DNA of 41,104 bases from a virus, in the IMG/VR virus record IMGVR_UViG_3300042301_002368, positions 1-41,104 of that record; one strand, 5' to 3'. The notes beneath the pieces were generated by a model, which saw only the letters and a program-made list of their open reading frames with translations, did no database searches and had not been told where the DNA came from. The position numbers were made by a program, and so were the translations under genes. Below, piece by piece: positions 1 through 41,104 of this stretch. Each line of letters opens with the position of its first letter. Positions within the stretch are counted from its first letter, which is position 1.

Positions 1-88
1 CCTTCTTATAGGTATCTGGAGATTCCAGTGAAGTCTTGATAGCAAGCGCCATCAACTCACTGGGTTTGAGTTTACGTAGGCGTGTCAT
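1..88 (-). CDS. dCMP deaminase, N-terminal fragment (runs off the left edge)
   Basis: Twenty-nine codons are visible, from an ATG at 88 to the window edge. The ATG overlaps the stop of the upstream gene as ATGA, so translation is probably coupled. The peptide is a basic start followed by a helix ending in SLESPDTYKK. In the deoxycytidylate deaminase family (for example T4 cd) such a helix is followed by a KVGAV-type strand, which would lie beyond the edge. The right edge of the window holds a minus-strand reading frame that begins with AFGYNSI and carries the zinc motifs of the same family. I infer that the two pieces are one gene, split where a circular map was opened. On its own this fragment would be only a short unidentified N-terminus. 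Confidence 0.6.
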   Translation of the reverse strand, partial: MTRLRKLKPSELMALAIKTSLESPDTYKK

Positions 89-954
89 TGTTTGTCGTGA
101 GCCAACTTCTTGAGAGCATCTACAAGGAACGAGGCCTTGCATTGATGATAGACGCCATCCTTGAGGAAGGCGAGGTGCTGCATGAGGTCTTCAGGACTTT
201 TGAAGTCGTTGACGTCAAGCCAGCCATACTCGAAACAAGCCTCAGTCTTGTTCTCCTTGTATTCTCGAAGAGCGTTCTGAGCCTGGACCCAGTTCTGCTC
301 GTAGAGATGTTGAGACCCAGCATTCAGGTAGATGTTGCCTAGGCTCAACTTGTTAGGATCATCTGCATATACTGCACGACCATCCTCGTCACGATATAGA
401 TGACGCATATACAGGAGCATATACGTAGTAATCATCGTGAAGTTAAAGATGTCATAGGGCCACCCAAGCCAAGCATCTGAAGAACGCATGGTGAGTATGC
501 AGTGAAGCTTACTGTTACGGATAAGCCACTGGACATTCAACGAGCAAGGAACGTCTTTAGAACGGATAGGACGCTCACGCCATATGTTGATCACCGCCTG
601 ACGAGTTCCGAAATCTCCAAGCAGGGTGATAGCAGCCCAATAGAACTGGTCCATGATCTTAGGACCGTAGGCACCCTGGAAAGTGAGTCGGTCGTCAGAG
701 AACAGGGAGATGGTCTTACTGTAAGGAGCTATGGTCTTGACTCTGTTGTCACCAGACAGAATCCAGTGAGCCTCAGCAGCCAGAAACTTGTAACCAAGCT
801 TGCGACTCAGAAGACTCAGGACAGGCTGGCGCATGTCAACACAGGTCTGACTAGCCAGGATTTCAAGCGTAGGCTTGTGACGGGGACTTACAGGTTGACC
901 CTCATCGAGAATACGCTGAACGAGTGCGACCCAGGATTTGTTAGCTGATTGCAT
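85..954 (-). CDS. thymidylate synthase-family protein, probable dCMP hydroxymethylase (289 aa)
   Basis: Belongs to the thymidylate synthase / dCMP hydroxymethylase superfamily, which transfers a one-carbon unit from methylene-tetrahydrofolate to C5 of a pyrimidine dNMP. The catalytic Cys137 lies in DVPCSLNVQWLIR, close to T4 gp42 MCTNTVQYLIR. Arg157-Ser-Ser-Asp160 and LGWPYDI follow, and His216/Tyr218 lie in AGSQHLY. From Cys to Arg is 20 residues and from Arg to the specificity residue 11, exactly as in E. coli ThyA (Cys146, Arg166, Asn177). That residue is Asp168 here, the substitution found in T4 dCMP hydroxymethylase (Asp179), which favours cytosine over uracil. A dCMP methylase, as in phage XP12, is the main alternative. 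Start ATG overlaps the preceding stop (TAATG). Genes around it encode a dNMP kinase, a MazG-like enzyme and a dCMP deaminase. Confidence 0.8.
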   Translation of the reverse strand: MQSANKSWVALVQRILDEGQPVSPRHKPTLEILASQTCVDMRQPVLSLLSRKLGYKFLAAEAHWILSGDNRVKTIAPYSKTISLFSDDRLTFQGAYGPKIMDQFYWAAITLLGDFGTRQAVINIWRERPIRSKDVPCSLNVQWLIRNSKLHCILTMRSSDAWLGWPYDIFNFTMITTYMLLYMRHLYRDEDGRAVYADDPNKLSLGNIYLNAGSQHLYEQNWVQAQNALREYKENKTEACFEYGWLDVNDFKSPEDLMQHLAFLKDGVYHQCKASFLVDALKKLAHDKQ

Positions 955-6599: not shown

Positions 6600-7220
6600 T
6601 TAGGCGTTCAGCTTGGCCACGATCTCGGCCTTCTGCTCCTCAGAGAGCTCGCTCACGCGGTCAGACTTGAAGAACGCGAGGATGGTCTCGATCTTGACCT
6701 TCGAGGCAGAGAAGCCAAGGCCACCGCCGCCGGTAGCAGACTTCTTGTAGCCGAAGGTGCCTTCCGGATAAACCAGTTCGCCCTTCTCGTCGGTCTTCTT
6801 CTCCAGGAACTGCTTGCGAGCCTGGATTTTCTTGATCTCCTCGGAGTGCCAGTCTTCAGCGGAGGTGTCAGTGAGACGAGCCTCAGCCAGAGCCTCAGCA
6901 ATCTCACGGGTCGTGTGAACGAAGTTGCCGTCCTCGTCCTTCTCCTGAAGCATGCGGTCGATGACCTCGAAACGCTGCTTGCGCTCGCTCACGACTTCCT
7001 TGCTCTTCTCCTTGAGCTGGTCCTTCAGCGCCTTCAGCTGAGCCGAAGAGAGCTTGGTGAGGTCGATCACCGGAACCTGAGGCTTGGTGTCCTCAGCGGA
7101 ATCGGTAGCCTCAGCAGCAGGCGTCTCGTTGTTGGGTTCAGCGACAGCGACGTTGCTGGTCTCGTTGAGGTCAGAAGGAGCGGACTCCTTGTTCTTCTTG
7201 GTCTTGTTGGACTTAGCCAT
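6600..7220 (-). CDS. hypothetical protein, paralogue of the 8707-9219 gene (206 aa)
   Basis: An abundant-looking, lysine-rich protein with no recognised family. Residues 1-50 are a low-complexity Lys then Glu/Ala/Pro/Thr region. The rest aligns with the 170-aa product at 8707-9219: IDLTKLSSAQLKALKDQLKE against VDITKLDKAQLAALKAQLDQ, a shared KDE(A/D)G(N/A)F motif, and a shared (Y/H)xEGTFGYKxxAT segment. A Gly-rich stretch (ATGGGGLGF) follows, then a helical end ELSEEQKAEIVAKLN. The ATG at 7220 is chosen because it matches the paralogue and follows an A/C-rich, SD-free leader (ACCATACCATC) resembling the capsid gene leader. It is monocistronic, ending at a strong terminator. Confidence 0.75.
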   Translation of the reverse strand: MAKSNKTKKNKESAPSDLNETSNVAVAEPNNETPAAEATDSAEDTKPQVPVIDLTKLSSAQLKALKDQLKEKSKEVVSERKQRFEVIDRMLQEKDEDGNFVHTTREIAEALAEARLTDTSAEDWHSEEIKKIQARKQFLEKKTDEKGELVYPEGTFGYKKSATGGGGLGFSASKVKIETILAFFKSDRVSELSEEQKAEIVAKLNA

Positions 7221-7519
7221 GATGGTATGGTGGATTCGTTGTTGAGTCGGATTTGTTGAACTGAAGGTAGTCAACCTATCCTGGTCCATAGCGTTGACCC
7301 TCGACCGCGCCGGAGTCAACACCCAAAACGCACAAAATTGCACTGAATATCATAAAAGTTTTGGTCGTAGCATGGACCAGAGTGTGAAGTTTGAGCTATT
7401 ATTTTCCAGTGGTGTCTCTGTATGTGGAAGAGCGCCGTGTTCTGGGTCGTGTCTCATGGCTCGCCTGAACAAACGTGGAACACAACATCGTTATGAGTTG
7501 ACCTGTTCCAGAATTTTGT

Positions 7520-7555
7520 TTTAAACAGGTGAATTGTGATTTCGTTTAAACAGGT
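7520..7555. repeat. direct repeat TTTAAACAGGT, 25 bases apart
   Basis: Perfect 11-bp copies at 7520-7530 and 7545-7555, just over two helical turns apart, so on the same DNA face. A partial inverted copy (ACCTGTT) begins at 7501. Related (C)GTTTAAA words recur at about 7962, 8075 and 8241 in the same non-coding region, consistent with a protein-binding array. Confidence 0.5.
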
Positions 7556-7878
7556 TTTGAACGGTCGAAAATAGGGTCGTGGTGCGTGTAACGTGTAACA
7601 TTGAACGCGTAACTGGGACGTTTTGTCTCACTCCGAGTTCGTGAACGTGCCCTGAACGGAGGGGTTGAATGGTCTTGTGGGATGTAAAATGCTGAATTGA
7701 TTGGTCTTGAATGGATCATGTGCCATGTGACGGCGTAGGCGTTGGGCGAAGTTGGTTTTTGAAGACAATTTTTTGAAAATGTTACTCATTGCTTTTTTCC
7801 TTAGGCGGTGATTTATTCGTGATTTCTTTTAAAGCTTCGATTACCAACGACTTACGTATAAAGGGGTCAGGGGTCTAG

Positions 7879-7927
7879 TCATTTCTTTTATCTGTAAGAT
7901 TTCCAAGGGTTTGCGTCAAACCTTAGG
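7879..7927 (+). repeat. 49-bp inverted repeat, left copy
   Basis: Pairs with the reverse complement of 8121-8169. Both copies read T(C/G)ATTTCTTTTA, then GTAAGATTT, then a short hairpin (GGTTTG...AAACC) ending CCTT. They differ at about eight positions and by a two-base gap, yet the internal hairpin is kept in both, suggesting it is functional. Confidence 0.65.
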
Positions 7928-8120
7928 ATTACAGAACTGGTTAACTGGCAAGAAGTTGTGCGTTTAAAAATTTCACGTTCGGAAAAAGTCAATCACGCCA
8001 AACAGCGGATCGTGAGTGCCTCAAAAATTTCTGCAAAAATGACCCTTTTCGGTGATTTCCGAAATCGTTTAAAACTGTAAACCCTAGCGGCCCTTAGAAA
8101 TAAAAGAAATGAGCACCGAA

Positions 8121-8169
8121 CGAAGGTTTTTACCCAAACCTTTGCAAATCTTACCTTTAAAAGAAATCA
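8121..8169 (-). repeat. 49-bp inverted repeat, right copy
   Basis: Diverged inverted partner of 7879-7927, with the same order of elements on the minus strand: TTTCTTTTA, GTAAGATTT, and an AAGGTTT/AAACCTT hairpin. It overlaps the outer right motif of the 350-bp dyad. Confidence 0.65.
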
Positions 8170-8215
8170 CCGGAAATTACCCCCCTTAAGGGAAAATTCA
8201 ATCACCACGGAAGCT

Positions 8216-8254
8216 GTTGACAGTCAACGAGTTTTGAGGCGTTTAAAACTCGTT
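8216..8254. repeat. adjacent palindrome and 10-bp stem hairpin
   Basis: GTTGAC-a-GTCAAC at 8216-8228 is a perfect 6-bp dyad of operator type. It overlaps AACGAGTTTT (8226-8235), which pairs perfectly with AAAACTCGTT (8245-8254) across a 9-base loop. There is no T-run, so this is not a simple terminator. Confidence 0.6.
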
Positions 8255-8295
8255 CGTATCCAGTTTTTGGATACACGTATCCAGTTTTTGGATAC
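8255..8295. repeat. tandem pair of identical hairpins
   Basis: A 20-base unit occurs at 8255-8274 and again at 8276-8295 (period 21, about two helical turns). Each copy contains GTATCCA / TGGATAC, a 7-bp stem with a GTTTT loop. Identical tandem palindromes in phase suggest an operator or structured initiator-binding site. Confidence 0.75.
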
Positions 8296-8346
8296 GAAAA
8301 TTGTGTTCATGACGCAAATGTCCTGATTCCTAGGGTGCTCGCGTCA

Positions 8347-8370
8347 ACGAGGTGCGGTTTATTACCTCGT
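8347..8370. repeat. hairpin ACGAGGT / ACCTCGT
   Basis: A perfect 7-bp stem (8347-8353 with 8364-8370) around a 10-base loop in the non-coding region. No U-tract follows, so it is structural or regulatory if functional. Confidence 0.4.
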
Positions 8371-8465
8371 CCTTGTTCCCTCCCATTCACGGTTCGTATT
8401 CCAGGTTCAACCCACCTCGCGCCTTAGTCCCTAATGCCATGTTTCACGATCCATGGGACTCTCGA

Positions 8466-8489
8466 ACGCGCCGCCATAGGGCGGCGCGT
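8466..8489. repeat. GC-rich 10-bp perfect hairpin
   Basis: ACGCGCCGCC (8466-8475) pairs with GGCGGCGCGT (8480-8489) around an ATAG loop. It is very stable, but no T-run follows on either strand, so it may be a structural element rather than an intrinsic terminator. Confidence 0.55.
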
Positions 8490-8649
8490 GCTGTTAGGTC
8501 AGTTACTGGAATCAACCGCCCCAGTTTCAGCTGATTTTTGAGCCTAGGTCCAACCATGGACCGACCCGCAAAACCGCGTTAAAACCGTGTTTAAAGGCCA
8601 CAAAATCGTGCCTCGCGAGCCGGAAACCCTACTCCCCGACTCCAGGACA

Positions 8650-8686
8650 CGAGAAAGCCCCGGAACCCTATGGGTTGCCGGGGCTT
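8650..8686 (-). terminator. strong intrinsic terminator after the 170-aa gene
   Basis: On the minus strand AAGCCCCGG pairs with CCGGGGCTT, and inside it AACCC pairs with GGGTT around an ATA loop with a single bulge. It is followed by TTTCTCG. It lies about 20 bases after the stop at 8707. Confidence 0.85.
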
Positions 8687-8706
8687 GATGCCTGAGACTA
8701 GAAACC

Positions 8707-9219
8707 TTACTTCTTGGCTAGAGTCTTGACGATGTCGCCGAATTGACCCTTGAGGCTGGTGATGATGTGCCCGACATCCTCAGCGGTCAACGCGTTGACG
8801 TTCTCAGGGTTCGCGAACCAAGCCACGACGTTCTCAGGCTTGTATTGGCGCGGCTGCAATGCCGTAGCAGTAGCCTTGTAGCCGAACGTGCCTTCAGCAT
8901 GGACCAGGTTGCCGGTCTCATCGGTCTCCTTCTCCAGCTTCTGCTTGAATGCCTGTATCTTCTTCAGGACGGAATCGCGCTGCTTCTGGTCCGTAGTGGT
9001 GGTAGGGTCAAGCGACTCCAGACCGTCACGGAACAGCAGGGACCATATATCAGCCGTCGTGTTGCGGAACGCCCCAGCCTCATCCTTGTCCATAAGCATC
9101 TGCTTGACCGTGTCCGCCCACAACTTGCGGGAATCGCGCTTCTGCTTGGACAACTGATCGAGTTGCGCCTTGAGCGCAGCCAACTGAGCCTTGTCCAACT
9201 TGGTGATGTCAACGTTCAT
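8707..9219 (-). CDS. hypothetical protein, paralogue of the 6600-7220 gene (170 aa)
   Basis: No known family. It has three recognisable blocks shared with the 206-aa paralogue: an N-terminal helical block (VDITKLDKAQLAALKAQLDQ), a KDEAGAFRNTT block near residue 50, and IQAFKQKLEKETDETGN followed by the EGTFGYKAT segment near residue 115. It lacks the paralogue's low-complexity first 50 residues and Gly-rich stretch. The C-terminus is helical and lysine-terminated. It is the first minus-strand gene next to the late block, has its own candidate promoter (TTGACA at 9316-9321) and terminator, and is thus a single-gene early unit. A structural or DNA-associated role is only a guess. Confidence 0.75.
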   Translation of the reverse strand: MNVDITKLDKAQLAALKAQLDQLSKQKRDSRKLWADTVKQMLMDKDEAGAFRNTTADIWSLLFRDGLESLDPTTTTDQKQRDSVLKKIQAFKQKLEKETDETGNLVHAEGTFGYKATATALQPRQYKPENVVAWFANPENVNALTAEDVGHIITSLKGQFGDIVKTLAKK

Positions 9220-32187: not shown

Positions 32188-32424
32188 ATGCACGGGAAAT
32201 TAGTCCAGCTTATTATCGATCGTCCAAACGTAGGTCTCGCAACCTCTGGTGGCGTCACAGCAGCAGGCGTCATCAGCCTTGTTGAAGCAGCCACAAAGAT
32301 AGGAGGTTTCTTGATCGTTCTAGTAGGCTTAATAGCTGCGTGGTATAACCTTAAAGTCCAACGCCACGCAGCTAAGAAACTTGAGGAGCAGGTCAAGACC
32401 AAAGAACCTGCATCAATCGAGTAG
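32188..32424 (+). CDS. small membrane protein, holin or inner-membrane spanin candidate (78 aa)
   Basis: Contains a hydrophobic helix GGFLIVLVGLIAAWYNL preceded by a weaker one (SGGVTAAGVISLVEAATKI) and followed by a charged tail (KVQRHAAKKLEEQVKTKEP). The arrangement resembles small phage holins of the type ...GVT...L...GxxxGxxxxxxNWYxxxR. With the o-spanin-like gene just upstream, an i-spanin is the alternative, although the periplasmic coiled coil would be short. The ATG at 32188 follows the lipoprotein stop by one base; a Met at 32173 inside the preceding gene is less likely. Its 3' end overlaps the opposing helicase gene by 12 bases. Confidence 0.5.
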   Translation: MHGKLVQLIIDRPNVGLATSGGVTAAGVISLVEAATKIGGFLIVLVGLIAAWYNLKVQRHAAKKLEEQVKTKEPASIE

Positions 32425-33876
32425 GCTACGCGGGTCGTCTAAGACCTCATCAGCAAGGCGCTTCTTAGCACGAAGCGCCTTGACTATTTTCTCGTCAACC
32501 GTCTTGGGTATCAGTAAGTCAATGTAAGTAACATTCTTGGTTTGACCAATACGGTGATTACGGTCTTCGCTTTGAAGTCGAACGCCGAGGTTGTAATCCT
32601 GTGAGTAGTAGATGCTGTATGTTGAGTTGACCAGTGTGATACCCCTGGACCCAGCGGATGAAGTCACGAAAAATCTGCACGCGGAACTGTTCTTGAACTT
32701 CTGGATATTCTCAGGACGTTGAGCAGCACTGGTCTCCCCGTAATAGTGAACACAGCAATCTTCGCCATAAGCTTCTTTTAAAGCTTCGCAAATCATTCGA
32801 ATGTCCTGCTGAAAGTGAGCCCAGATGATTATGTTCTCAGTAGCTGGTATTTCCTCAATCACCTGAAGTAATGTCTTGATGCGGTTGCTGGGTATCAACT
32901 GTATCTTTCCGTCGTCATCTGATACGTGGCCACAGTTGATCTGGTGAAGCTTCATCATTGTCGTTAAGACTGAAGTAGAGCTAACCACTGAGCCATTCCC
33001 CAGGACCATCAGAGCTTCTTCTTTAAGACGCTCGTAAGCTTCTTCCTGTTCCTTGGTTGCTTCAACAAACCTAGTCATGTATATCTTCTCAGGCAAGTCA
33101 AGGCACTCCTGCTTCAGCAACCTGGAACTGAAAGGCTTGATCGTCTCTGTCAACTCGTCCAGATTTCTGTAGCCTACGATCTTTTCGTATGATCTAGTCC
33201 CTGCAGTCATGCGCCTTACAATAGCGTAATAGCACTTGAACTGAAGGAAGCTTGGGAATCTCATTACCCTAGGCTTAAGAAATTCACACTGAGCATACAA
33301 GTCCAATGGAGACTGGGTGATTGGAGTGCCGTCAGCAATTCTTCGATAACGACACTGATCTCCAAGTTTCTGGATGGACTTGGTTCTTGCTGCAGTTGGA
33401 TTCTTGATCGACACTGATTCGTCAACAACCAGCATCGTGTGATGATTCTTGATGAAGTTCTCAGCAACCATGTAACCTTTCTCGGTTGCCATTGCTTCGA
33501 TGTTGATTACCAGAAAGTCCAGTGTGTCGTCCTTAGCGGAGAGCACAGCCTGACATGCAGGAATGTCAGATTTCTTCATGTCGGCATTCCAGTAAGCTAC
33601 TCGATGCGGTATGTTCTCTGGCACGTGAGTTGGCAATTCTTCACGAACCCAGTTGAGAAACACGCCTTTAGGAGCTAACACAAGAACACCGTCAATCTTC
33701 CTGGTCATGAACAACCAAGCAGAAGTGTCAATGATGATCTTAGTTTTGCCTAGTCCCATCTCCCAGAAAAAGGCAAAATACTCCATGTCTCTCGACATCT
33801 TGAATTCTCTGGCTTGATGTGCGTAAGGTTTCCGTCGTGGTAGAAACTCTGGAATGGAAGTGTTTACTTTAAGCAT
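32413..33876 (-). CDS. SNF2-family helicase / translocase (487 aa)
   Basis: An SF2 ATPase of the SNF2 type. Walker A is WEMGLGKTK (38-46), the DExx box is VVDESVSIKN (151-160), motif III region is ADGTPITQSP, and the C-terminal lobe has IIIWAHFQQD, SAGSRGITL and the diagnostic LQSEDRNHRIGQ. Some phages carry such helicases, where they could remodel replication forks or remove bound proteins; the precise role is not known. The gene faces the late block, and its last 12 bases overlap the holin-like gene. A hairpin inside its 3' end (32454-32482) appears to act as terminator for late transcripts. Confidence 0.88.
   Translation of the reverse strand: MLKVNTSIPEFLPRRKPYAHQAREFKMSRDMEYFAFFWEMGLGKTKIIIDTSAWLFMTRKIDGVLVLAPKGVFLNWVREELPTHVPENIPHRVAYWNADMKKSDIPACQAVLSAKDDTLDFLVINIEAMATEKGYMVAENFIKNHHTMLVVDESVSIKNPTAARTKSIQKLGDQCRYRRIADGTPITQSPLDLYAQCEFLKPRVMRFPSFLQFKCYYAIVRRMTAGTRSYEKIVGYRNLDELTETIKPFSSRLLKQECLDLPEKIYMTRFVEATKEQEEAYERLKEEALMVLGNGSVVSSTSVLTTMMKLHQINCGHVSDDDGKIQLIPSNRIKTLLQVIEEIPATENIIIWAHFQQDIRMICEALKEAYGEDCCVHYYGETSAAQRPENIQKFKNSSACRFFVTSSAGSRGITLVNSTYSIYYSQDYNLGVRLQSEDRNHRIGQTKNVTYIDLLIPKTVDEKIVKALRAKKRLADEVLDDPRSLLD
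32454..32490 (+). terminator. late-block terminator embedded in the helicase gene
   Basis: CAAGGCGCTTC (32454-32464) pairs perfectly with GAAGCGCCTTG (32472-32482), an 11-bp stem with a 7-base loop, followed by ACTATTTTCT on the plus strand. It is 30 bases beyond the last late stop (32424) and inside the antisense coding region (codons for KALRAKKRLA). Confidence 0.7.
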
Positions 33877-33962: not shown

Positions 33963-35480
33963 TCAGAACTCATAGGCATATTTACTCTCTGCGGAAACAA
34001 CGTAGAGATTTTTCTTTGCTCGCGTCACGCCGACATACCAGACACGATGTTCGGAATCCATATCTTTCTCAGCTTCGTTGTGAGTTTTCCAAGACATGTC
34101 AGTGAACAGAACAACGTTGTCTGCCTCACCGCCCTTGGCTCCATGGATGGTGTTAATTCTGATTCGAGGTTCAGCCATAAGCTTCTCCTTTTTCTTCAAA
34201 GCCATGACTACGTAGTCTTGTTCTTGTTGGGTTAGCTTATCAAGAGCAACACGCCAGAGAGCGTCTGTCTGTAGTCCGTAGTTCTCCATCAAGTCGCTGA
34301 GACAAAGTCCCTGTTCATCGGGAACTTCATCCAATTTCTTCTTGCATCCCCACTTTACTCTGGTGCGGACTGACATAAAGGTATAGACTACTTTGACATG
34401 CTCTGCTCGCACGAAGTTCCCGCGTCTTAGTGTCTCCCACGTTTTGATTGCCAGAAGAGCTTCCTCCCGAATGGGCGACTGGACGCGTGAGGCGAAGAGG
34501 TGTCCGCGTTCGATGCAATGCAGAACATATCTTTCGAGGATGAATACATTTCGGGCGAGCAGGAGCCAGGTTCCTTCTGACATGTCAATCTGGTCAATGT
34601 CCTGGACAAAATGCACTCCTCCCTCTTCATCAGTTCGAGGGTGATACTCCTTGGTTCTGCGGTTACGTATCTTACTGGAAATTTTATTTGCAACAGCGTG
34701 AACTTTAGAAGGAATGCGGTAACTCTGGTTGAGCACTTCTGTCCTGTGATCGAGAGACAGAAACTGATCAACTTGAGCGCCAGCCCAATTATAGATTGCC
34801 TGATCGTCGTCACCCGCAACATAGACTTCATCGGAATTTACAGCAAGTTTCTCAACCATCTTCCACTGGATCATTGACAAGTCTTGAGCCTCGTCAACAA
34901 TCAATTTCTTGAAAGGCTTTACTTCACATCGTTCAATGAACCTGTAAAGCATGTCAGTGAAGTCCAGCTTCATGCGAACCTGCTTATACTGAGACAACAC
35001 CTGATGTAGATACTCAAGTTCACCAAACGAGACATCGTCGTCATGATACTTCCTGTAAGCTTCTTCTAAGCCTAAGCAGGTTATGCGGGAAAGATTTTCC
35101 AGAAACAGGATTCGATCACCTTTGGTGGACATCGCTCCAAAGGTTCCATCTTCATGAACCTTGTGGTTGCTAAACTCATAACCAGTAGTCTTGGAGATGT
35201 TCATGTAGTCTCCATAGGCCATGACTTCGTTCTTCTCCATTCGGAGTTCCCTGAAAGCAAACGAATGCAATGTGCGGAAATACTTAAATCCATCAGGAGG
35301 GAGACCAAACTTCTGGATAGCTCGGTCCTTAGCCTCGTCCGCAGCCTTCTTTGTAAAGGATACGTAAGCAATATCCTCTGGTTTAATGCCAGCTTGCAAA
35401 GACTCGTTTACAAGAGATAGAAGCTTGGTAGTCTTACCGGTTCCGGGAGGACCGAAGATTGTTGTGGTCTTGTGTTTCAT
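33963..35480 (-). CDS. UvrD/Rep-like superfamily 1 helicase (505 aa)
   Basis: A DNA helicase with the canonical SF1A motifs: Walker A IFGPPGTGKTTK (8-19), motif Ia YVSFTKKAADEA, Walker B LIVDEAQDLS, motif III VAGDDDQAIYNWAGA, motif IV LNQSYRIP, motif V NTIHGAKGGEADNVVL and motif VI VWYVGVTRAKKNLYVVS. It is shorter than UvrD because the 1B/2B insertions are reduced. Since no DnaB or T7 gp4-like replicative helicase is visible, it may drive fork unwinding together with the primase. Starts one base before the stop of the primase gene. Confidence 0.92.
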   Translation of the reverse strand: MKHKTTTIFGPPGTGKTTKLLSLVNESLQAGIKPEDIAYVSFTKKAADEAKDRAIQKFGLPPDGFKYFRTLHSFAFRELRMEKNEVMAYGDYMNISKTTGYEFSNHKVHEDGTFGAMSTKGDRILFLENLSRITCLGLEEAYRKYHDDDVSFGELEYLHQVLSQYKQVRMKLDFTDMLYRFIERCEVKPFKKLIVDEAQDLSMIQWKMVEKLAVNSDEVYVAGDDDQAIYNWAGAQVDQFLSLDHRTEVLNQSYRIPSKVHAVANKISSKIRNRRTKEYHPRTDEEGGVHFVQDIDQIDMSEGTWLLLARNVFILERYVLHCIERGHLFASRVQSPIREEALLAIKTWETLRRGNFVRAEHVKVVYTFMSVRTRVKWGCKKKLDEVPDEQGLCLSDLMENYGLQTDALWRVALDKLTQQEQDYVVMALKKKEKLMAEPRIRINTIHGAKGGEADNVVLFTDMSWKTHNEAEKDMDSEHRVWYVGVTRAKKNLYVVSAESKYAYEF

Positions 35481-35481
35481 G

Positions 35482-36996
35482 TTAATACGGGATGTCTCCG
35501 ACTTGCTGCTCTGGAACAGTGAATCGGAATTGGTCTGGGTTGAAATACTTAATCTTCATGACGCTACGGAACGTGCCCTTCTTGATGTTCAAGCCTTGGT
35601 GAAGCACACCATACTCACGAAGAATAGAGGTGATTTGATTGGATTTGAAGTAATTGAATCGTTTACGATCGAGGTATTGAAGAAAGTCTTGTAGTCTGAA
35701 ATGATGGAAGCCGTTGTAGTTGTAAATCTGCCCGCGTAGAAGACACTCAGGGTTTTCATCTCCAGGACGGTTGACGCAGAAGTCTTCGAGATGCTGCATC
35801 AGTTGGCCAGAAGGAGTGTTGTCTTTAGGAATCTCAACAACGTTGAGGTCTGTCATCAGGTTCATCAACAAGCCTTGCCATTGCTTGTTCTCGATCATAG
35901 GAGGTATCAGGTTTAAAGCCTCCATGCAGCGTCTTTGAAAGTGTCTGGGAGACTGAAGTTCTTCAGTCGTCAGTTCCACTCGGCCACCGTCATCGACATC
36001 AATGAACCACACTGGAGGTTCTGTGCATATCTTAGTCAAAGCACTAAGGGTTGGAAACCCACTGGACTCTCCTACGCCATACTTCCTAGTTCTGCAAAGT
36101 TTAGCGTTGCAGTGATCGCAGATTGGCTGCTTCCTGCAGGTGTAGTTGTAGTCTTTCTTATCCAGCGACCCTATGAGGGTAAGAACTTCCTTGGATGGAA
36201 GAGGCTTGGCCAGCTTGTTGTTGTATTCTTCGACCTTCTGTTTCCACTCATCAGGAAACTTCTTCTTGAAGTAGGTCGCAAAGTTGACCATACCCTGATT
36301 CCTGAAGCCTTCTTTGAGACCAAGGCTATCGATGTGTTGTAAACAGGGAGGACCGTCAGCAAACTCCTGAGACAACGGAATGTCAAAGTTCTCCAGGTCA
36401 TCCTCACTGATTTGATTCTTGTGAGCAAGTCGAATGAAGTCTACTAGAGTAAGCCTATCCTGCTCCTGAGTGATACAGAATCTTTCTGTCGCATCAGAGT
36501 TGAAGTATGGCATGTTGATCCACTGACCAACATCGCCTCTTTCCTTAAGAACTTCGACCTGTTTGGGAAATATTTCCGCTGTTCCTGAGCCAAGCACAAC
36601 CGCCATCTCTCTAAGTTTGCGCTGCATCAGAGAGGCTCGAACAAAATTCTGAGTGAAGCAATACAAGTGTGCTCCACCTGATTTGCTCCTAATCATGATA
36701 AGCGGAAGTTTGAACTTCTTTATTTTCTTGAGAAGAGCCTGATGGTCCAGTTTGTAGTCGTCGATGTCTATGGCTCCAAACCTGCACAAACTCTCAGGAT
36801 TAATGGGTATTATTCCCAGCTGAGACTTGCCGTTTAGATGCTCTGTCCAACGATCTACTGTCACTGGCTCCTTAACAGTCTTCCCTCCTCCTTTAACCTT
36901 GCCATCCTCACGGATGTCTCCGCTAAAGACAAATTTACCATGATACTCGTTGTTCCCCTCGAACAACTTCATTATGGTAGGAGCGTATTCGTTCAT
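35482..36996 (-). CDS. archaeo-eukaryotic (TOTE-type) primase (504 aa)
   Basis: Residues 70-170 show primase-polymerase motifs of the AEP superfamily: CRFGAIDIDDY with Asp77/Asp79 (motif I), RSKSGGAHLYCF with His110 (motif II), and AEIFPKQ followed by GQWINMPYF, the latter a signature of the primase domain of TOTE-type conflict systems. Further on is a cysteine cluster C-x6-C-x2-C-x4-C in YTCRKQPICDHCNAKLCRTRKYG, probably metal-binding. The C-terminal 150 residues include a small helical domain (HFRLQDFLQYLDRKRFN). It would make RNA/DNA primers for the PolA-type polymerase. No other TOTE component (nuclease-helicase fusion, for instance) is fused to it. Preceded by an 90-base gap with hairpins. 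Confidence 0.85.
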   Translation of the reverse strand: MNEYAPTIMKLFEGNNEYHGKFVFSGDIREDGKVKGGGKTVKEPVTVDRWTEHLNGKSQLGIIPINPESLCRFGAIDIDDYKLDHQALLKKIKKFKLPLIMIRSKSGGAHLYCFTQNFVRASLMQRKLREMAVVLGSGTAEIFPKQVEVLKERGDVGQWINMPYFNSDATERFCITQEQDRLTLVDFIRLAHKNQISEDDLENFDIPLSQEFADGPPCLQHIDSLGLKEGFRNQGMVNFATYFKKKFPDEWKQKVEEYNNKLAKPLPSKEVLTLIGSLDKKDYNYTCRKQPICDHCNAKLCRTRKYGVGESSGFPTLSALTKICTEPPVWFIDVDDGGRVELTTEELQSPRHFQRRCMEALNLIPPMIENKQWQGLLMNLMTDLNVVEIPKDNTPSGQLMQHLEDFCVNRPGDENPECLLRGQIYNYNGFHHFRLQDFLQYLDRKRFNYFKSNQITSILREYGVLHQGLNIKKGTFRSVMKIKYFNPDQFRFTVPEQQVGDIPY

Positions 36997-37086: not shown

Positions 37087-37881
37087 TTACTCCTCTTGCT
37101 CAGAGTGAGCAGGAAGAGCCAGGCTCTTGGCCATATCATTCGCCACCTTGCGAGCGTTCTGAACCATCTCAAGGTGCTGAGGAATGTTCGGGTTGAGCAT
37201 CAGGCTCACCTCGAAGTTCCAGCCATACCAGGAACCCTCGTTGTTCTTCTCAATGTCGGTCATGACATTGTAGCTGTGGGAGAACATCGGAGGAGTGACG
37301 CCGTTGATCTTGATGCTCTGCATCATGTTCAGCCAGCGACGACCGTTCTTGAGTTGGGTTGAGGTCATACCAATGATAACCTTTTCCCAGGCACCCTCGA
37401 TCTGAGCAAAGCCATAGAAGTAATGAGTCGTGATGATTTCATTGCCTTCTCCAGAACCACTTACCAGGATGTCTTTGTTCTTCTCGTTGCGCTCAGTGCG
37501 CAGGAGAATGTTCGGATCACGATGCATCTTGACAAAGCCACCGCCCGAATCACGAGTCTTGAATTCAGGGTAGAGCTTCTCTGCATAGCAGGGAATGAAC
37601 TTCAGGGGCTTGGTCTTGTCTCCCGAATAAACGATCTTGCGGGACAGGCTGTTGATGATCATACCAGGCTTGACTCCCTCGATGCGCTTCTTGGGATGGT
37701 CTTTGTGGGTCTCGTCGAATTCAGGAGAACCCTTCTGGATGATCTGGAGAAACGGAATCCCCAAATCTTCAGCCTTGGTTCCCTCGAATCCGGTCGAGGC
37801 TTCCTTCGACCAATCATAAGGCGCAACCTCAGAAGAGGGAGCGACGTTCTTGTTGTCTTCCTTACCAGTGCTCTTAGCCAT
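37087..37881 (-). CDS. putative single-stranded DNA-binding or recombination protein (264 aa)
   Basis: No firm family match. The N-terminal 25 residues are polar and disordered; then comes FEGTKAEDLGIPFLQIIQKGSPEFDE followed by VKPGMIINSLSRKIVYSGDK and a beta-rich middle (LKFIPCYAEKLYPEF, HYFYGFAQIEGAWEKVIIGMTSTQL). The C-terminus is acidic (SEQEE). This layout occurs in phage proteins annotated as ssDNA-binding and located beside primase and polymerase genes. High expression is suggested by an A/C-rich, SD-free leader with repeated CAACAA before the ATG. An alternative is a protein of unknown function in the replication complex. Confidence 0.45.
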   Translation of the reverse strand: MAKSTGKEDNKNVAPSSEVAPYDWSKEASTGFEGTKAEDLGIPFLQIIQKGSPEFDETHKDHPKKRIEGVKPGMIINSLSRKIVYSGDKTKPLKFIPCYAEKLYPEFKTRDSGGGFVKMHRDPNILLRTERNEKNKDILVSGSGEGNEIITTHYFYGFAQIEGAWEKVIIGMTSTQLKNGRRWLNMMQSIKINGVTPPMFSHSYNVMTDIEKNNEGSWYGWNFEVSLMLNPNIPQHLEMVQNARKVANDMAKSLALPAHSEQEE

Positions 37882-37916: not shown

Positions 37917-38438
37917 TTACTTGACTTTCGTTTGGTTAACAACGTGAACCCCAAACAAATCCATTGGAAGGGGCTTACCCGCTTCCAGACGCTGCTTGAC
38001 GAACGACTTCAGGGTCATGTGATGTATCGTTTCTTTAGCGTCGAAAATGATGCGACTCTGCTTCATGAACGTCATGAGTTTAACAGAATCTTCTAGCTCC
38101 TTGCGGCCTTTGCCGAAATCGGCAACGATCTTGGTCTTGATCATTGCGTCCTCCTCTTGCTCCTGAAGCCACTTCTTAGCGGCTTCCCAGCGTTCAGCAG
38201 AAATGGAAGCTGAATAATCCTTGGAAACTTTGACTGTTTTAATGCCCAACGACTCGTCGTCAAGTCTTATTTCGGTCAAACCCATATCCAAGAACAAGTC
38301 TGGGATGATGGTCTGATTAATCTCTTGGTGCTTCTTCTGAAGTTCAGCCAAGCGTTGTTCCGTCTGTTCGATCTCTCGCTCCACTGCAAGCATGTGCCTG
38401 CATTGAGCGGCTAGGTATTTTAATTTATCACTGCTCAT
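37917..38438 (-). CDS. hypothetical replication-cluster protein with N-terminal coiled coil (173 aa)
   Basis: Residues 15-45 form a charged coiled coil (EREIEQTEQRLAELQKKHQEI). Then follow PDLFLDMGLTEIRLDDESLGIKTVKVSKDYSASI and a helical region ERWEAAKKWLQEQEEDAMIKTKIVADFGKG, ending in a basic/hydrophobic tail (FVKQRLEAGKPLPMDLFGVHVV). This layout recurs in phage proteins next to nuclease and polymerase genes, but no function is established. Overlaps the upstream nuclease gene by 11 bases, so translation is likely coupled. Followed by a 35-base A/C-rich leader of the ssDNA-binding-like gene. Confidence 0.6.
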   Translation of the reverse strand: MSSDKLKYLAAQCRHMLAVEREIEQTEQRLAELQKKHQEINQTIIPDLFLDMGLTEIRLDDESLGIKTVKVSKDYSASISAERWEAAKKWLQEQEEDAMIKTKIVADFGKGRKELEDSVKLMTFMKQSRIIFDAKETIHHMTLKSFVKQRLEAGKPLPMDLFGVHVVNQTKVK

Positions 38439-38811
38439 GTCGGTCTTGATTTAGGTTAGCGTCAACAGCGTTCATGCTGATGACTTTTCCTGGGTGTTCA
38501 CGTATGTCTATCAGTTTATTGGGATACGGGAAATAGTATATACGAACTGATGAAGTCTCAGCTTCGTGGCGAGCCAGTAGGATTACGCGTCCGCCGTGTC
38601 GGTGTTCACGATGAGCGAACACATATTGCTCTGGTCTCACTTTGATGAAATGGTTTCCCTCAATTACCTTGAGTTCTAACCAATAGGAATGATTGTTGTA
38701 GGTGTAGTGAACATCTGGGGTTCCGCGGCCAATAGCGTTCTCAACCCTGACCGCGTTCCCCTGAAGCTTGGTCTTGAGCAAATTCCAGAACTTTGATTCC
38801 GGTCCTGTCAT
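38428..38811 (-). CDS. VRR-NUC / PD-(D/E)xK nuclease (127 aa)
   Basis: A small stand-alone nuclease of the VRR-NUC family. Glu5 in GPESKFWNLLK is the conserved N-terminal acid. RGTPDVHYTY gives Pro32-Asp33, and SYWLELKV gives Glu46-x-Lys48, the PD-(D/E)xK core; VRPEQYVFAHREHRHGGRVILLAR is the following helix and strand. Such enzymes act on branched DNA, taking a role like T7 endonuclease I. The ATG at 38811 (rather than the TTG two codons earlier) overlaps the polymerase stop as ATGA, and an AGGAGG sequence lies about 10 bases upstream, one of few good Shine-Dalgarno sites here. Confidence 0.85.
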   Translation of the reverse strand: MTGPESKFWNLLKTKLQGNAVRVENAIGRGTPDVHYTYNNHSYWLELKVIEGNHFIKVRPEQYVFAHREHRHGGRVILLARHEAETSSVRIYYFPYPNKLIDIREHPGKVISMNAVDANLNQDRHEQ

Positions 38812-40775
38812 TTCCAAGTTCCTCCTAGCTCCATCTCTGCAAGCATGGGAGTCGAAATGTCAACACAAGACTCCATGCACAACCGAATCTGCTCTGCTAC
38901 GTGCTCATCTGGAACAGAGTAGTTGAGTTCGTCATGCACCTGCATGTGCGGCACTAGACCCAATTCCTTCCAGACCTTCAGCATAGCCGCTTTAGTCATG
39001 TCAGCAGCAGACCCTTGAATCAAGGCGTTAAGAGCCTTGTAAGCGTAGGCTCTCTTTAGAGGTAGCCCAGGGTATTTTTTCTTGGCAACCTCATAAACGT
39101 AAGGAGTAGTGTCCTTACCCTGTTGACGCATCATGTAGGAGTCAGCAGGCTCATAGAGATTGAAATGACGGTGACGACCCAGTAGAGTCTTGATGTAGCC
39201 TCTGTTCTGAGCAGTCTTCATCACTGCATCTGACAGTTCCTTGATGTAAGGATTAGCTGTGTCGAAGGTGTGTGCAATGCGCTTGGCTTCCTCAATGTCG
39301 ACGCCTAGGTCATTGGCAATCTTAGCGATACCTTCACCATAGCACCGACCCAGGGTCAGGTCTTTAGCAGGCTTACGCTTCAGCTTGGCTTCATCAGCTA
39401 CCAACTGGTAGTAGTCAGCCTTGCGATTCACGAGCCACGCTTCACGAGCCTTGTCCGCACCGCGGTAGCCAGACTTGAAGGCGTAGTGAACCATGATGCG
39501 AGGCTCCTGCTGAGAGTAGTCATACTTGCCCCAGCGCATACCTTTATCGGGAATGAAAAAGCCTCGAATAATCGGAGCCATGTCAGGGTCACGAGAAGGA
39601 ACTTGCTGAAGGTTAGGACGAGTGCAGGAAAACCGAGAGCTACGAGCGCCTTCGCGTTCACCGTCTTCATCGTCCCTGGGCATCTGGTTGAAGGTAGCGT
39701 GAATGCGACCGTTAACTGAATATTCCAAGATGAGCTTGTCACAGAAGTCAGACTTGAGCTTACGCATACGCCTGATCTTTGCAACTTTGAGAGCAGTGGG
39801 ATGCTTACAGTGCTTGAAGAACAGTTTGTCGTAAGAATTGCGTCCTGTTTTGGTGGTCCCTACTTCGAGGTTTTGATTCTCAAAGATGCGGTCTAGATGT
39901 TCGCCGGAGTTAACATTGACCCAGAAGCCAAACTCCCTGAACATCTCATACTCCAGACGCTTGATGTCTTCATCCCACATCTTACTGCATTTCTCAGCCT
40001 TCTCCACATCGACACGGACGCCAAGAAATCTCATCTCCAGGACCAGCTTGCTCAACTCTGTCTCCATCTCGAAGATGTTCCAGAGACCTTGAGCCTTCAG
40101 CAAAGACTTCTGCTTTTCTAGAACAAGGATGGAGTTCTCAGGGTCAATCTCAGCGTAGGGACCAACATACTTAGGAGGGAGTTTCCATAGGTCTATCTTC
40201 GAGTCACAGCCATAAGTCTTGGCTGCGAGTTCGAGTAGTTCTTCGTTCTTACCCTTGCCCAAGTATTTGCGACTCAGCGTTTCGAGACCAAAGCTGTCAG
40301 CCTCTTCATCGAGAAGAGCTTCCGCAATCTGGGTATCCTGCCACGCTCCCCCAAGCCTGATACCGAGTGCACGTAGCCACTCTGCATCATAGAGGATATT
40401 TGACCCAACCTTATCTTCTGAGGATTCCAGTTGACTTTTTGCGTAGTCAAGAACTGTTTGACGATCAAGATTCCCTCCGCCTTGGTGAGCAATAGGATAG
40501 TAGGCTTTCCAGCCTCGATCGATAATTTCAACGCTTCCAGTTGAAACCTTGCCGGAGGGTGGGACACATAATGCAATGCCCACTGGATAGCCGTCTTTTC
40601 GGAATGTTCCAGGTCCATGTGTTCTTAGTTTAGGGTCTCTGGTTTCCAAGTCGACTCCAATGGACTTGCTCCCACGCAAGTCGGGAAACGAGGTGGGAGC
40701 AGTCCAACTGGATTCAGGCTCAAAGAGAACCAAATTCAGACCATCTTGAGGGTTACTGAACTTTTTCTTCGCCAT
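38808..40775 (-). CDS. DNA polymerase I family (T7-like) with 3'-5' exonuclease (655 aa)
   Basis: The replicative polymerase. The exonuclease domain has IGVDLETRDP (Asp42, Glu44), NILYDAEW (Asp130) and YAEIDPEN (Tyr207, Asp211). The polymerase domain has motif A YDYSQQEPRI (Asp419), motif B RKPAKDLTLGRCYGEG, and motif C QVHDELN (Asp615). In motif B the spacing R467-K471-L475-Y479 equals E. coli Arg754, Lys758, Phe762, Tyr766, so the residue at the 762 position is Leu instead of Phe or Tyr. Variation at this site is used in viral ecology and affects nucleotide discrimination. No 5' nuclease domain is present, as usual for phage PolA. The start overlaps the deaminase stop by 23 bases. Confidence 0.95.
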   Translation of the reverse strand: MAKKKFSNPQDGLNLVLFEPESSWTAPTSFPDLRGSKSIGVDLETRDPKLRTHGPGTFRKDGYPVGIALCVPPSGKVSTGSVEIIDRGWKAYYPIAHQGGGNLDRQTVLDYAKSQLESSEDKVGSNILYDAEWLRALGIRLGGAWQDTQIAEALLDEEADSFGLETLSRKYLGKGKNEELLELAAKTYGCDSKIDLWKLPPKYVGPYAEIDPENSILVLEKQKSLLKAQGLWNIFEMETELSKLVLEMRFLGVRVDVEKAEKCSKMWDEDIKRLEYEMFREFGFWVNVNSGEHLDRIFENQNLEVGTTKTGRNSYDKLFFKHCKHPTALKVAKIRRMRKLKSDFCDKLILEYSVNGRIHATFNQMPRDDEDGEREGARSSRFSCTRPNLQQVPSRDPDMAPIIRGFFIPDKGMRWGKYDYSQQEPRIMVHYAFKSGYRGADKAREAWLVNRKADYYQLVADEAKLKRKPAKDLTLGRCYGEGIAKIANDLGVDIEEAKRIAHTFDTANPYIKELSDAVMKTAQNRGYIKTLLGRHRHFNLYEPADSYMMRQQGKDTTPYVYEVAKKKYPGLPLKRAYAYKALNALIQGSAADMTKAAMLKVWKELGLVPHMQVHDELNYSVPDEHVAEQIRLCMESCVDISTPMLAEMELGGTWK

Positions 40776-41104
40776 TTGAAGGAACGAGGTCGTCGATTAC
40801 AAGTTTGAATACGTCGATGCCATAGAAGCGAGCGACGGCGAAGGCAGGCTTATCTTTTTCGTAAGCCTCGCCATATACCACTCTCTTAACCCCATGGACC
40901 GCAAGATTTTTCATGCAGTCAACACAGGGGAAGAGACTGGTATATACCTCATTGATCTGGCCCTTAGTCACCAATGAGCACATCATGGATTCAGCATGAA
41001 CCATGAATGGGCGTCGGACGTCTCGATTGTTCATGAACTCATCGAGGTCTTTGTAGCCCATCTTTTCAGGCTTGGCGTCAAGGATAGAGTTGTAGCCGAA
41101 AGCA
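40753..41104 (-). CDS. dCMP deaminase, central and C-terminal part (runs in from the right edge)
   Basis: Converts dCMP to dUMP. The frame is open to the window edge: AFGYNSI, then MVHAESMMCSL with the zinc-ligand His and catalytic Glu (HAE), FPCVDCMKNL with the two zinc-binding Cys, and VVYGEAYEKDKPAFAVARFYGIDVF, which aligns with T4 cd (LVYCETYDKNKPGWDDILRNAGIEVF). The N-terminal helix is missing, and its probable counterpart is the 29-codon fragment at the left edge. Joining them needs a gap of roughly 30-40 bases (n = 1 modulo 3) to keep frame and typical spacing. It lies upstream of, and overlaps, the polymerase gene. Confidence 0.88.
   Translation of the reverse strand, partial: AFGYNSILDAKPEKMGYKDLDEFMNNRDVRRPFMVHAESMMCSLVTKGQINEVYTSLFPCVDCMKNLAVHGVKRVVYGEAYEKDKPAFAVARFYGIDVFKLVIDDLVPSNGEEKVQ

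Follow-up and report, generated by a model that had tools for sequence, protein, structure and literature searches.

The archaeo-eukaryotic-type (AEP) primase of a water-borne phage sits in a conserved seven-gene replication kit without a ring helicase. The phage is represented by a viral record of 41,104 nucleotides (IMGVR_UViG_3300042301_002368), the whole of which was analysed and is here called the window, and its primase is encoded by the ORF at 35482-36996 on the minus strand. The module of AEP primase, UvrD-like helicase, SNF2-like ATPase and family A DNA polymerase (PolA) to which it belongs is real and widespread. The grouping of PolA, UvrD and SNF2 has already been published and most parts of the module are individually known; new are the tie of an AEP primase to the Leu762 Group II replisome and the systematic absence of both ring helicase and DnaG, together with a candidate single-stranded DNA-binding protein (gp34) and a candidate origin (7344-8706). 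We consider it fairly probable that the ORF encodes the replicative primase of a DnaB-less replisome, in which UvrD and PolA would open the fork and gp34 would coat single-stranded DNA.

The primase ORF has an ATG start and encodes 504 amino acids, comprising an AEP catalytic domain (residues ~1-207), a PriCT-1-like region (~215-285), a cysteine cluster (287-301) and a C-terminal domain with a winged-helix-like part (~390-487); these assignments draw on Pfam, PHROG, an alignment and a predicted structure. All the motifs listed by the first-pass annotation were recovered, namely DID (D77/D79), SGGAH (S106-H110), EIFPKQ (141-146) and GQWINMP (157-163), as was its cysteine cluster (C287/C293/C296/C301). 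Across 40 aligned relatives there is no variation at D77, D79, S106, G107, G108 and H110, nor at E141, P144, Q146, W159, C287, C296 and C301, with E141 probably representing the third catalytic acid; C293 varies. The Pfam AEP-TOTE family (PF22548) matches the protein with 47.8 bits (cut-off 27; E 1.8e-12) and the 'primase' family PHROG 21866 covers nearly the whole ORF (E 6.5e-95), which, along with a structural match at Z 21.0, confirms that it is an AEP primase. PriCT-1 is detectable in 34 of the 40 relatives (best E 3.6e-9), and its profile gives no match to the window primase itself at E 1. Searches of the PDB and PHROGs with the C-terminal part (~312-490) recovered no sequence relative outside its own family.

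As a gene this primase is not new, for it is already labelled 'primase' in both GenBank and PHROGs. Members of PHROG 21866 include Podoviridae sp. ct3Et533 (MW202510), Acinetobacter phage SH-Ab 15497 and Pseudanabaena phage Pan1; the isolate records are homologous over most of the primase at 25-44% identity, and these phages share UvrD, SNF2/SF2 and usually PolA as neighbours. The window primase shows no essential difference from them and is a new divergent member. The initial view that such primases are rarely seen in podoviruses was overstated, as one IMG/VR scan alone gave 58 loci with this primase, and an earlier survey, as cited in a passage of Kazlauskas 2018 (PMC5862659), reported AEPs in phages to be nearly as frequent as DnaG-like primases. 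A corresponding scan of genome contigs gave only seven MAG contigs, appearing to be viral sequence in MAGs. An apparent insert in one MAG primase (L068), considered as a possible intein, proved to be a run of masked N.

In the structure predicted with AlphaFold2 (five models, mean pLDDT 83) residues 1-207 adopt the AEP fold. Foldseek matched the prediction to the CRISPR-associated Prim-Pol (CAPP) at 4e-10, and VIA-align superposed it on CAPP 7nqf over 188 residues with Z 21.0 and an rmsd of 2.7, as against Z ~10 for the next AEPs. The winged-helix-like matches over residues 390-487 are weak, with Z at most 6.7 for the predicted structure. We also considered whether the C-terminal domain might correspond to the flanks of a Cch/SaPI-Rep helicase minus the ATPase (5dgk, Z 7.8; 8tch, Z 6.3), and set this aside as a lead only, given rmsd values of ~19-20 and no sequence support in the PDB or PHROGs.

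The Pfam name and the co-occurrence of SNF2 with an AEP had led the first-pass annotation to call the protein TOTE-type and to recall the conflict systems of that name (TPR, OB, TBP, Effector; PMC12458937). Comparison with a cellular sample of 595 bacterial genomes from two phyla traced this to a naming effect: PF22548 scores are 33-53 bits for the phage primases and 230-350 bits for most cellular TOTE AEPs, and in a maximum-likelihood tree (root unknown; leaf tote_L114 being a mislabelled viral contig) the TOTE and CAPP sequences are split from all the phage primases with 100% UFBoot. The three full-length cellular TOTE proteins examined have an SF2 (ResIII/DEAD) helicase fused to the AEP, whereas a Pfam scan of the 504-residue phage protein found no helicase domain. 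No TPR or TBP match was obtained by Pfam among the 13 window proteins scanned; an OB fold is predicted for gp34, but it stands in synteny with PolA. Tree, scores and architecture lead us to reject TOTE membership, and 'TOTE' is only a Pfam label on a primase of a separate viral clade, with SNF2 and AEP here forming a replication module and not a conflict island. What the phage primase shares with CAPP (PDB 7nqf) and the TOTE AEPs is the core fold (Z 21) and an EIFPKQ-type motif; it differs in its phage-specific PriCT-1 and C-terminal domain as well as in the lack of the SF2 fusion. A bacterial AEP of 357 amino acids (L097, 1105-2175, minus strand) falls between the phage and TOTE groups in score, reaching 107-111 bits with PF22548 and 80 bits with the phage profile.

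The neighbours of the primase, all on the minus strand, account for the remainder of the kit. A UvrD/Rep-like SF1 helicase of 505 amino acids (33963-35480), recognised by motif and profile matches, begins 1 bp past the primase stop and retains intact Walker A (GPPGTGKTT) and VDEAQD motifs; beyond it lies an SNF2-type SF2 ATPase/translocase of 487 amino acids (32413-33876; PHROG 62 and Pfam), so that both helicase-like genes first reported next to the primase are present. On the other side is gp34, a Pam3_Gp34-family protein of 264 amino acids (37087-37881; PF23977). Foldseek gave no significant match with its predicted structure (pLDDT 88.5); the VIA matches are mostly OB-fold single-stranded DNA-binding proteins, including BRCA2, T4 gp32 and PRD1 P12, the first being the phiC31 RDF and the best Z a weak 7.6. 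Our best guess is that gp34 is likely an SSB. It is followed by a Pam3 gp33-like protein (DUF7307; 37917-38438), a conserved module member by Pfam, PHROG and synteny, and by a nuclease (38428-38817) whose assignment as VRR-NUC stands in part: a PD-(D/E)xK pattern (GTPDV...WLELK) and a match to PHROG 2165 are present, and the Pfam VRR_NUC match is not significant. The PolA gene (38808-40775; Pfam and alignment) includes a 3'-5' exonuclease domain, and residue 475 of its product, equivalent to position 762 of E. coli Pol I, is a leucine, as in 54 of 54 PolAs having an aligned residue there. Elsewhere in the window, the portal belongs to PHROG 332 (head-tail adaptor), in line with a T7-like podovirus.

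Over 61 loci the order PolA, VRR-like nuclease, gp33, gp34, primase, UvrD and SNF2 is unchanged in 50, and UvrD directly follows the primase in nearly all. The order differs in DSL-LC04 and SH-Ab 15497, and hence the exact arrangement is not obligatory. Variants of the module are also carried by siphoviruses of Acinetobacter, Klebsiella and Salmonella, by Pelagibacter phages, and by one roseophage and one cyanophage. Scans seeded from the other genes of the module converge on the same association: among the best 80 loci each, which are near relatives and include a few contigs recurring in both scans, an AEP was found in 32/32 UvrD-seeded and 20/20 SNF2-seeded loci with enough flank, and no DnaB or DnaG in any of these. 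Among isolate phages, strong UvrD matches come from the same phages that bear this AEP primase. Two longer sequences, G027 (131,754 bp) and G028 (116,843 bp), carry the same primase and a second, weak AEP-TOTE match. Near PolA in module-bearing siphoviruses there is an adenylosuccinate synthetase-like gene (L003, 31689-32852; L118, 21478-22581), which we take to make 2-aminoadenine DNA possible in these phages.

The significance of missing genes depends on how complete the genome is. Both contig ends lie inside one dCMP deaminase gene (Pfam, ORF), with the N-terminus encoded leftwards at 1-84 and the C-terminal part at 40753-41103 (minus strand), where the contig end cuts off the 5' part. Comparison with relatives, which share the order TS-deaminase-PolA, indicates that ~18 deaminase residues, or ~50 bp, are missing between the ends. 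The nominally linear record hence represents a nearly complete genome in circular permutation, in which the absence of a gene is meaningful. In the same region a thymidylate-synthase-like protein (85-954, minus strand) has Asp at the Asn177 position (47/47 homologues having the catalytic Cys), presumably conferring a dCMP-hydroxymethylase-like specificity with 5-hydroxymethylcytosine DNA as a possible outcome.

Neither DnaB_C nor Toprim_2 (the DnaG/gp4 type) was found in the window. Across the records searched, DnaB_C was found in 0/38 (33, followed by 5 further complete phages), of which eight are publicly available complete phage genomes, and the T7 and 14 cellular control genomes scored positive; Toprim_2 was found in 0/9 records, T7 again being positive. 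A search of the window for Walker A motifs retrieved only thymidylate kinase and UvrD, plus an SNF2 variant, and likewise disposed of a hidden ring ATPase of that type in the window and three relatives. A DnaB hidden by truncation of the contig can also be dismissed, since its ends join inside the deaminase gene. The lack of a phage-encoded DnaB-type ring helicase is a well-controlled statement, and the first-pass claim that no DnaB/gp4-like protein is present is borne out by the near-complete genome and the related complete ones: with only ~50 bp missing, no DnaB, gp4 or DnaG was found elsewhere in the full genome. The wider claim, of an AEP primase and SF1 helicase in place of a T7-type primase-helicase, is supported in outline, with an SNF2 ATPase adjoining as well. 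By comparison, nearly all primase-bearing dsDNA viruses encode a replicative helicase too (Kazlauskas 2018, PMC5862659).

The polymerase places this module within a replisome known from viromes. Leu762 Group II PolAs have been described with SNF2 and UvrD neighbours (Nasko 2018, PMC6302109), and in one Chesapeake estuarine virome the UvrD/SNF2/Leu762-PolA combination was the second most abundant PolA replisome, with 16.4% of PolA-contig reads (PMC6302109). The phages studied here share Leu762 and the UvrD-like and SNF2-like genes beside PolA. The primase passages of Nasko 2018 concern DnaG only, with none named for Group II, and the word 'primase' is absent from Keown 2022 (PMC9069017), whereas an AEP is identified here. 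A second difference concerns lifestyle: the relevant passages of the two papers (PMC6302109, PMC9069017) lean to a temperate one, whereas an integrase of the tyrosine type, the type covered, was found in 0/21 records of the Leu762-PolA group, T7 aside, among them L002, L003, L004 and L115-L119. This casts doubt on the rule that Leu762 means temperate for this group. Keown 2022 also reported that 2/5 active Leu762 PolAs strand-displaced in vitro and put forward strand separation by the polymerase as a possibility in SNF2-carrying viruses (PMC9069017).

Starting from what is directly seen, that is the predicted fold, the motifs, the gene module, Leu762 and the absence of DnaB and DnaG, we propose the following scheme. 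The AEP domain, with D77, D79, H110 and probably E141, would lay primers on a single-stranded template, while PriCT-1, the cysteine cluster and the C-terminal domain may contribute to DNA binding or to positioning of the enzyme. The UvrD-like SF1 helicase encoded next to it would open the fork along with strand displacement by PolA, a tendency reported for some Leu762/SNF2-linked polymerases, and the phage PolA would extend the primers. Single strands would be coated by the OB-fold gp34 in its putative SSB role, SNF2 may act as a duplex remodeller or translocase, and the VRR-like nuclease and ligase may process ends and junctions. Such a scheme resembles herpesvirus UL52/UL5, where an AEP primase likewise goes with a separate SF1 helicase (PMC4538821); the phage helicase is of the UvrD type and the phage polymerase of family A. 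For the phage pair it is adjacency of the genes that is seen; the helicase subfamily differs, the herpesvirus polymerase is of family B and the herpesvirus helicase-primase matches the predicted primase structure with Z 5.9.

This reading of the ORF as a DnaB-less replicative primase is favoured by the AEP fold and family, the invariant catalytic positions (40/40), the conserved order (50/61) and Leu762 (54/54), by the AEP in all UvrD- and SNF2-seeded loci, by the counts for DnaB_C (0/38) and Toprim_2 (0/9) in conjunction with a near-complete window, and by the passages describing Group II with UvrD and SNF2 (PMC6302109) and strand-displacing PolAs (PMC9069017). It is drawn from sequence and predicted structure, and against it count the non-obligatory gene arrangement, the poor processivity of UvrD-type helicases, which are usually repair enzymes, the mere two of five active Leu762 PolAs that displaced strands (PMC9069017), the weak fold match behind the SSB call for gp34 (Z at most 7.6) and a possible, unseen recruitment of host DnaB. 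A bolder version, which we put forward tentatively and with more doubt than belief, is that a widespread lineage of tailed phages copies dsDNA with neither a phage nor a host ring helicase, by means of a two-part AEP and UvrD helicase-primase, convergent with that of herpesviruses, with a family A polymerase displacing strands behind it.

Foremost among the alternatives, though unlikely, is a ColE2-Rep-like initiator: a primase of AEP-PriCT-1-(w)HTH layout would melt the origin without an ATPase and lay one primer for strand displacement by PolA, leaving UvrD and SNF2 to recombination and repair. ColE2 Rep has just this layout and can unwind dsDNA (PMC5862659), its partner is DNA polymerase I, a family A enzyme (PMC5862659, PMC4538821), and the phage likewise has a PolA, with strand displacement known for some Leu762 enzymes (PMC9069017). 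The phage primase resembles ColE2 Rep and RepE/RepS/PrimHYQ in this ATPase-less arrangement, by virtue of PriCT-1 in 34/40 relatives and a weakly matched winged-helix-like C-terminus; it differs in that no sequence match to them was seen and in that UvrD, SNF2 and a phage-encoded PolA accompany it. A possible site of action is the longest non-coding gap of the window (7344-8706; 1,363 bp), which bears three exact copies of GTGATTTCNTTTAAA, found nowhere else in the window (chance expectation 0.39 at up to 2 mismatches), as well as long inverted repeats, one of 43 nt, and two tandem hairpin units CGTATCCAGTTTTTGGATAC at 8255-8295. We regard it as a candidate replication origin or control region. 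The repeats are few and lineage-specific, those in the matching gaps of two relatives being different in sequence, and origin binding is putative; moreover, an initiator of this kind leaves unexplained why UvrD is kept adjacent or close to the primase in podoviruses and siphoviruses alike. The gap is flanked by a paralogous pair of minus-strand genes (6600-7343 and 8707-9219) that share 101 nt at 77% identity.

Somewhat less likely again is that the phage supplies the primase but the host DnaB ring opens the fork, brought in through the primase, gp33 or some other small protein of the phage. Recruitment of host DnaB is common in phages without their own, and among the module and early genes there are several of no assigned function. 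Yet no dedicated loader appears among the module genes scanned, the Walker A ORFs of the window are SF1/SF2 proteins and a kinase only (a scan blind to a loader lacking Walker A), and no AEP is known to dock on bacterial DnaB as DnaG does. AEPs often serve in damage tolerance, and the CAPP-like predicted fold would suit a PrimPol that restarts priming or bypasses lesions while host DnaG does most of the priming; we hold this to be quite improbable, given that all through the group the gene stays tightly syntenic with PolA and UvrD and that no other phage primase was found (Toprim_2 0/9). A TOTE-like conflict or counter-defence cassette, suggested by the Pfam family name and a PADLOC PrimPol model at 30 bits, is scarcely credible for a separate clade that scores far below most cellular TOTE AEPs, has no SF2 fusion and is syntenic with PolA in the replication core.

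A primase, an AEP, is now assigned to an abundant replisome for which earlier descriptions had named none. The absence of DnaB and DnaG turns its replication into a concrete question, namely whether an SF1 helicase and strand displacement suffice to drive the fork of a dsDNA phage, and cultured relatives, for example the Acinetobacter phages Barton and JeffCo, offer a way to answer it.
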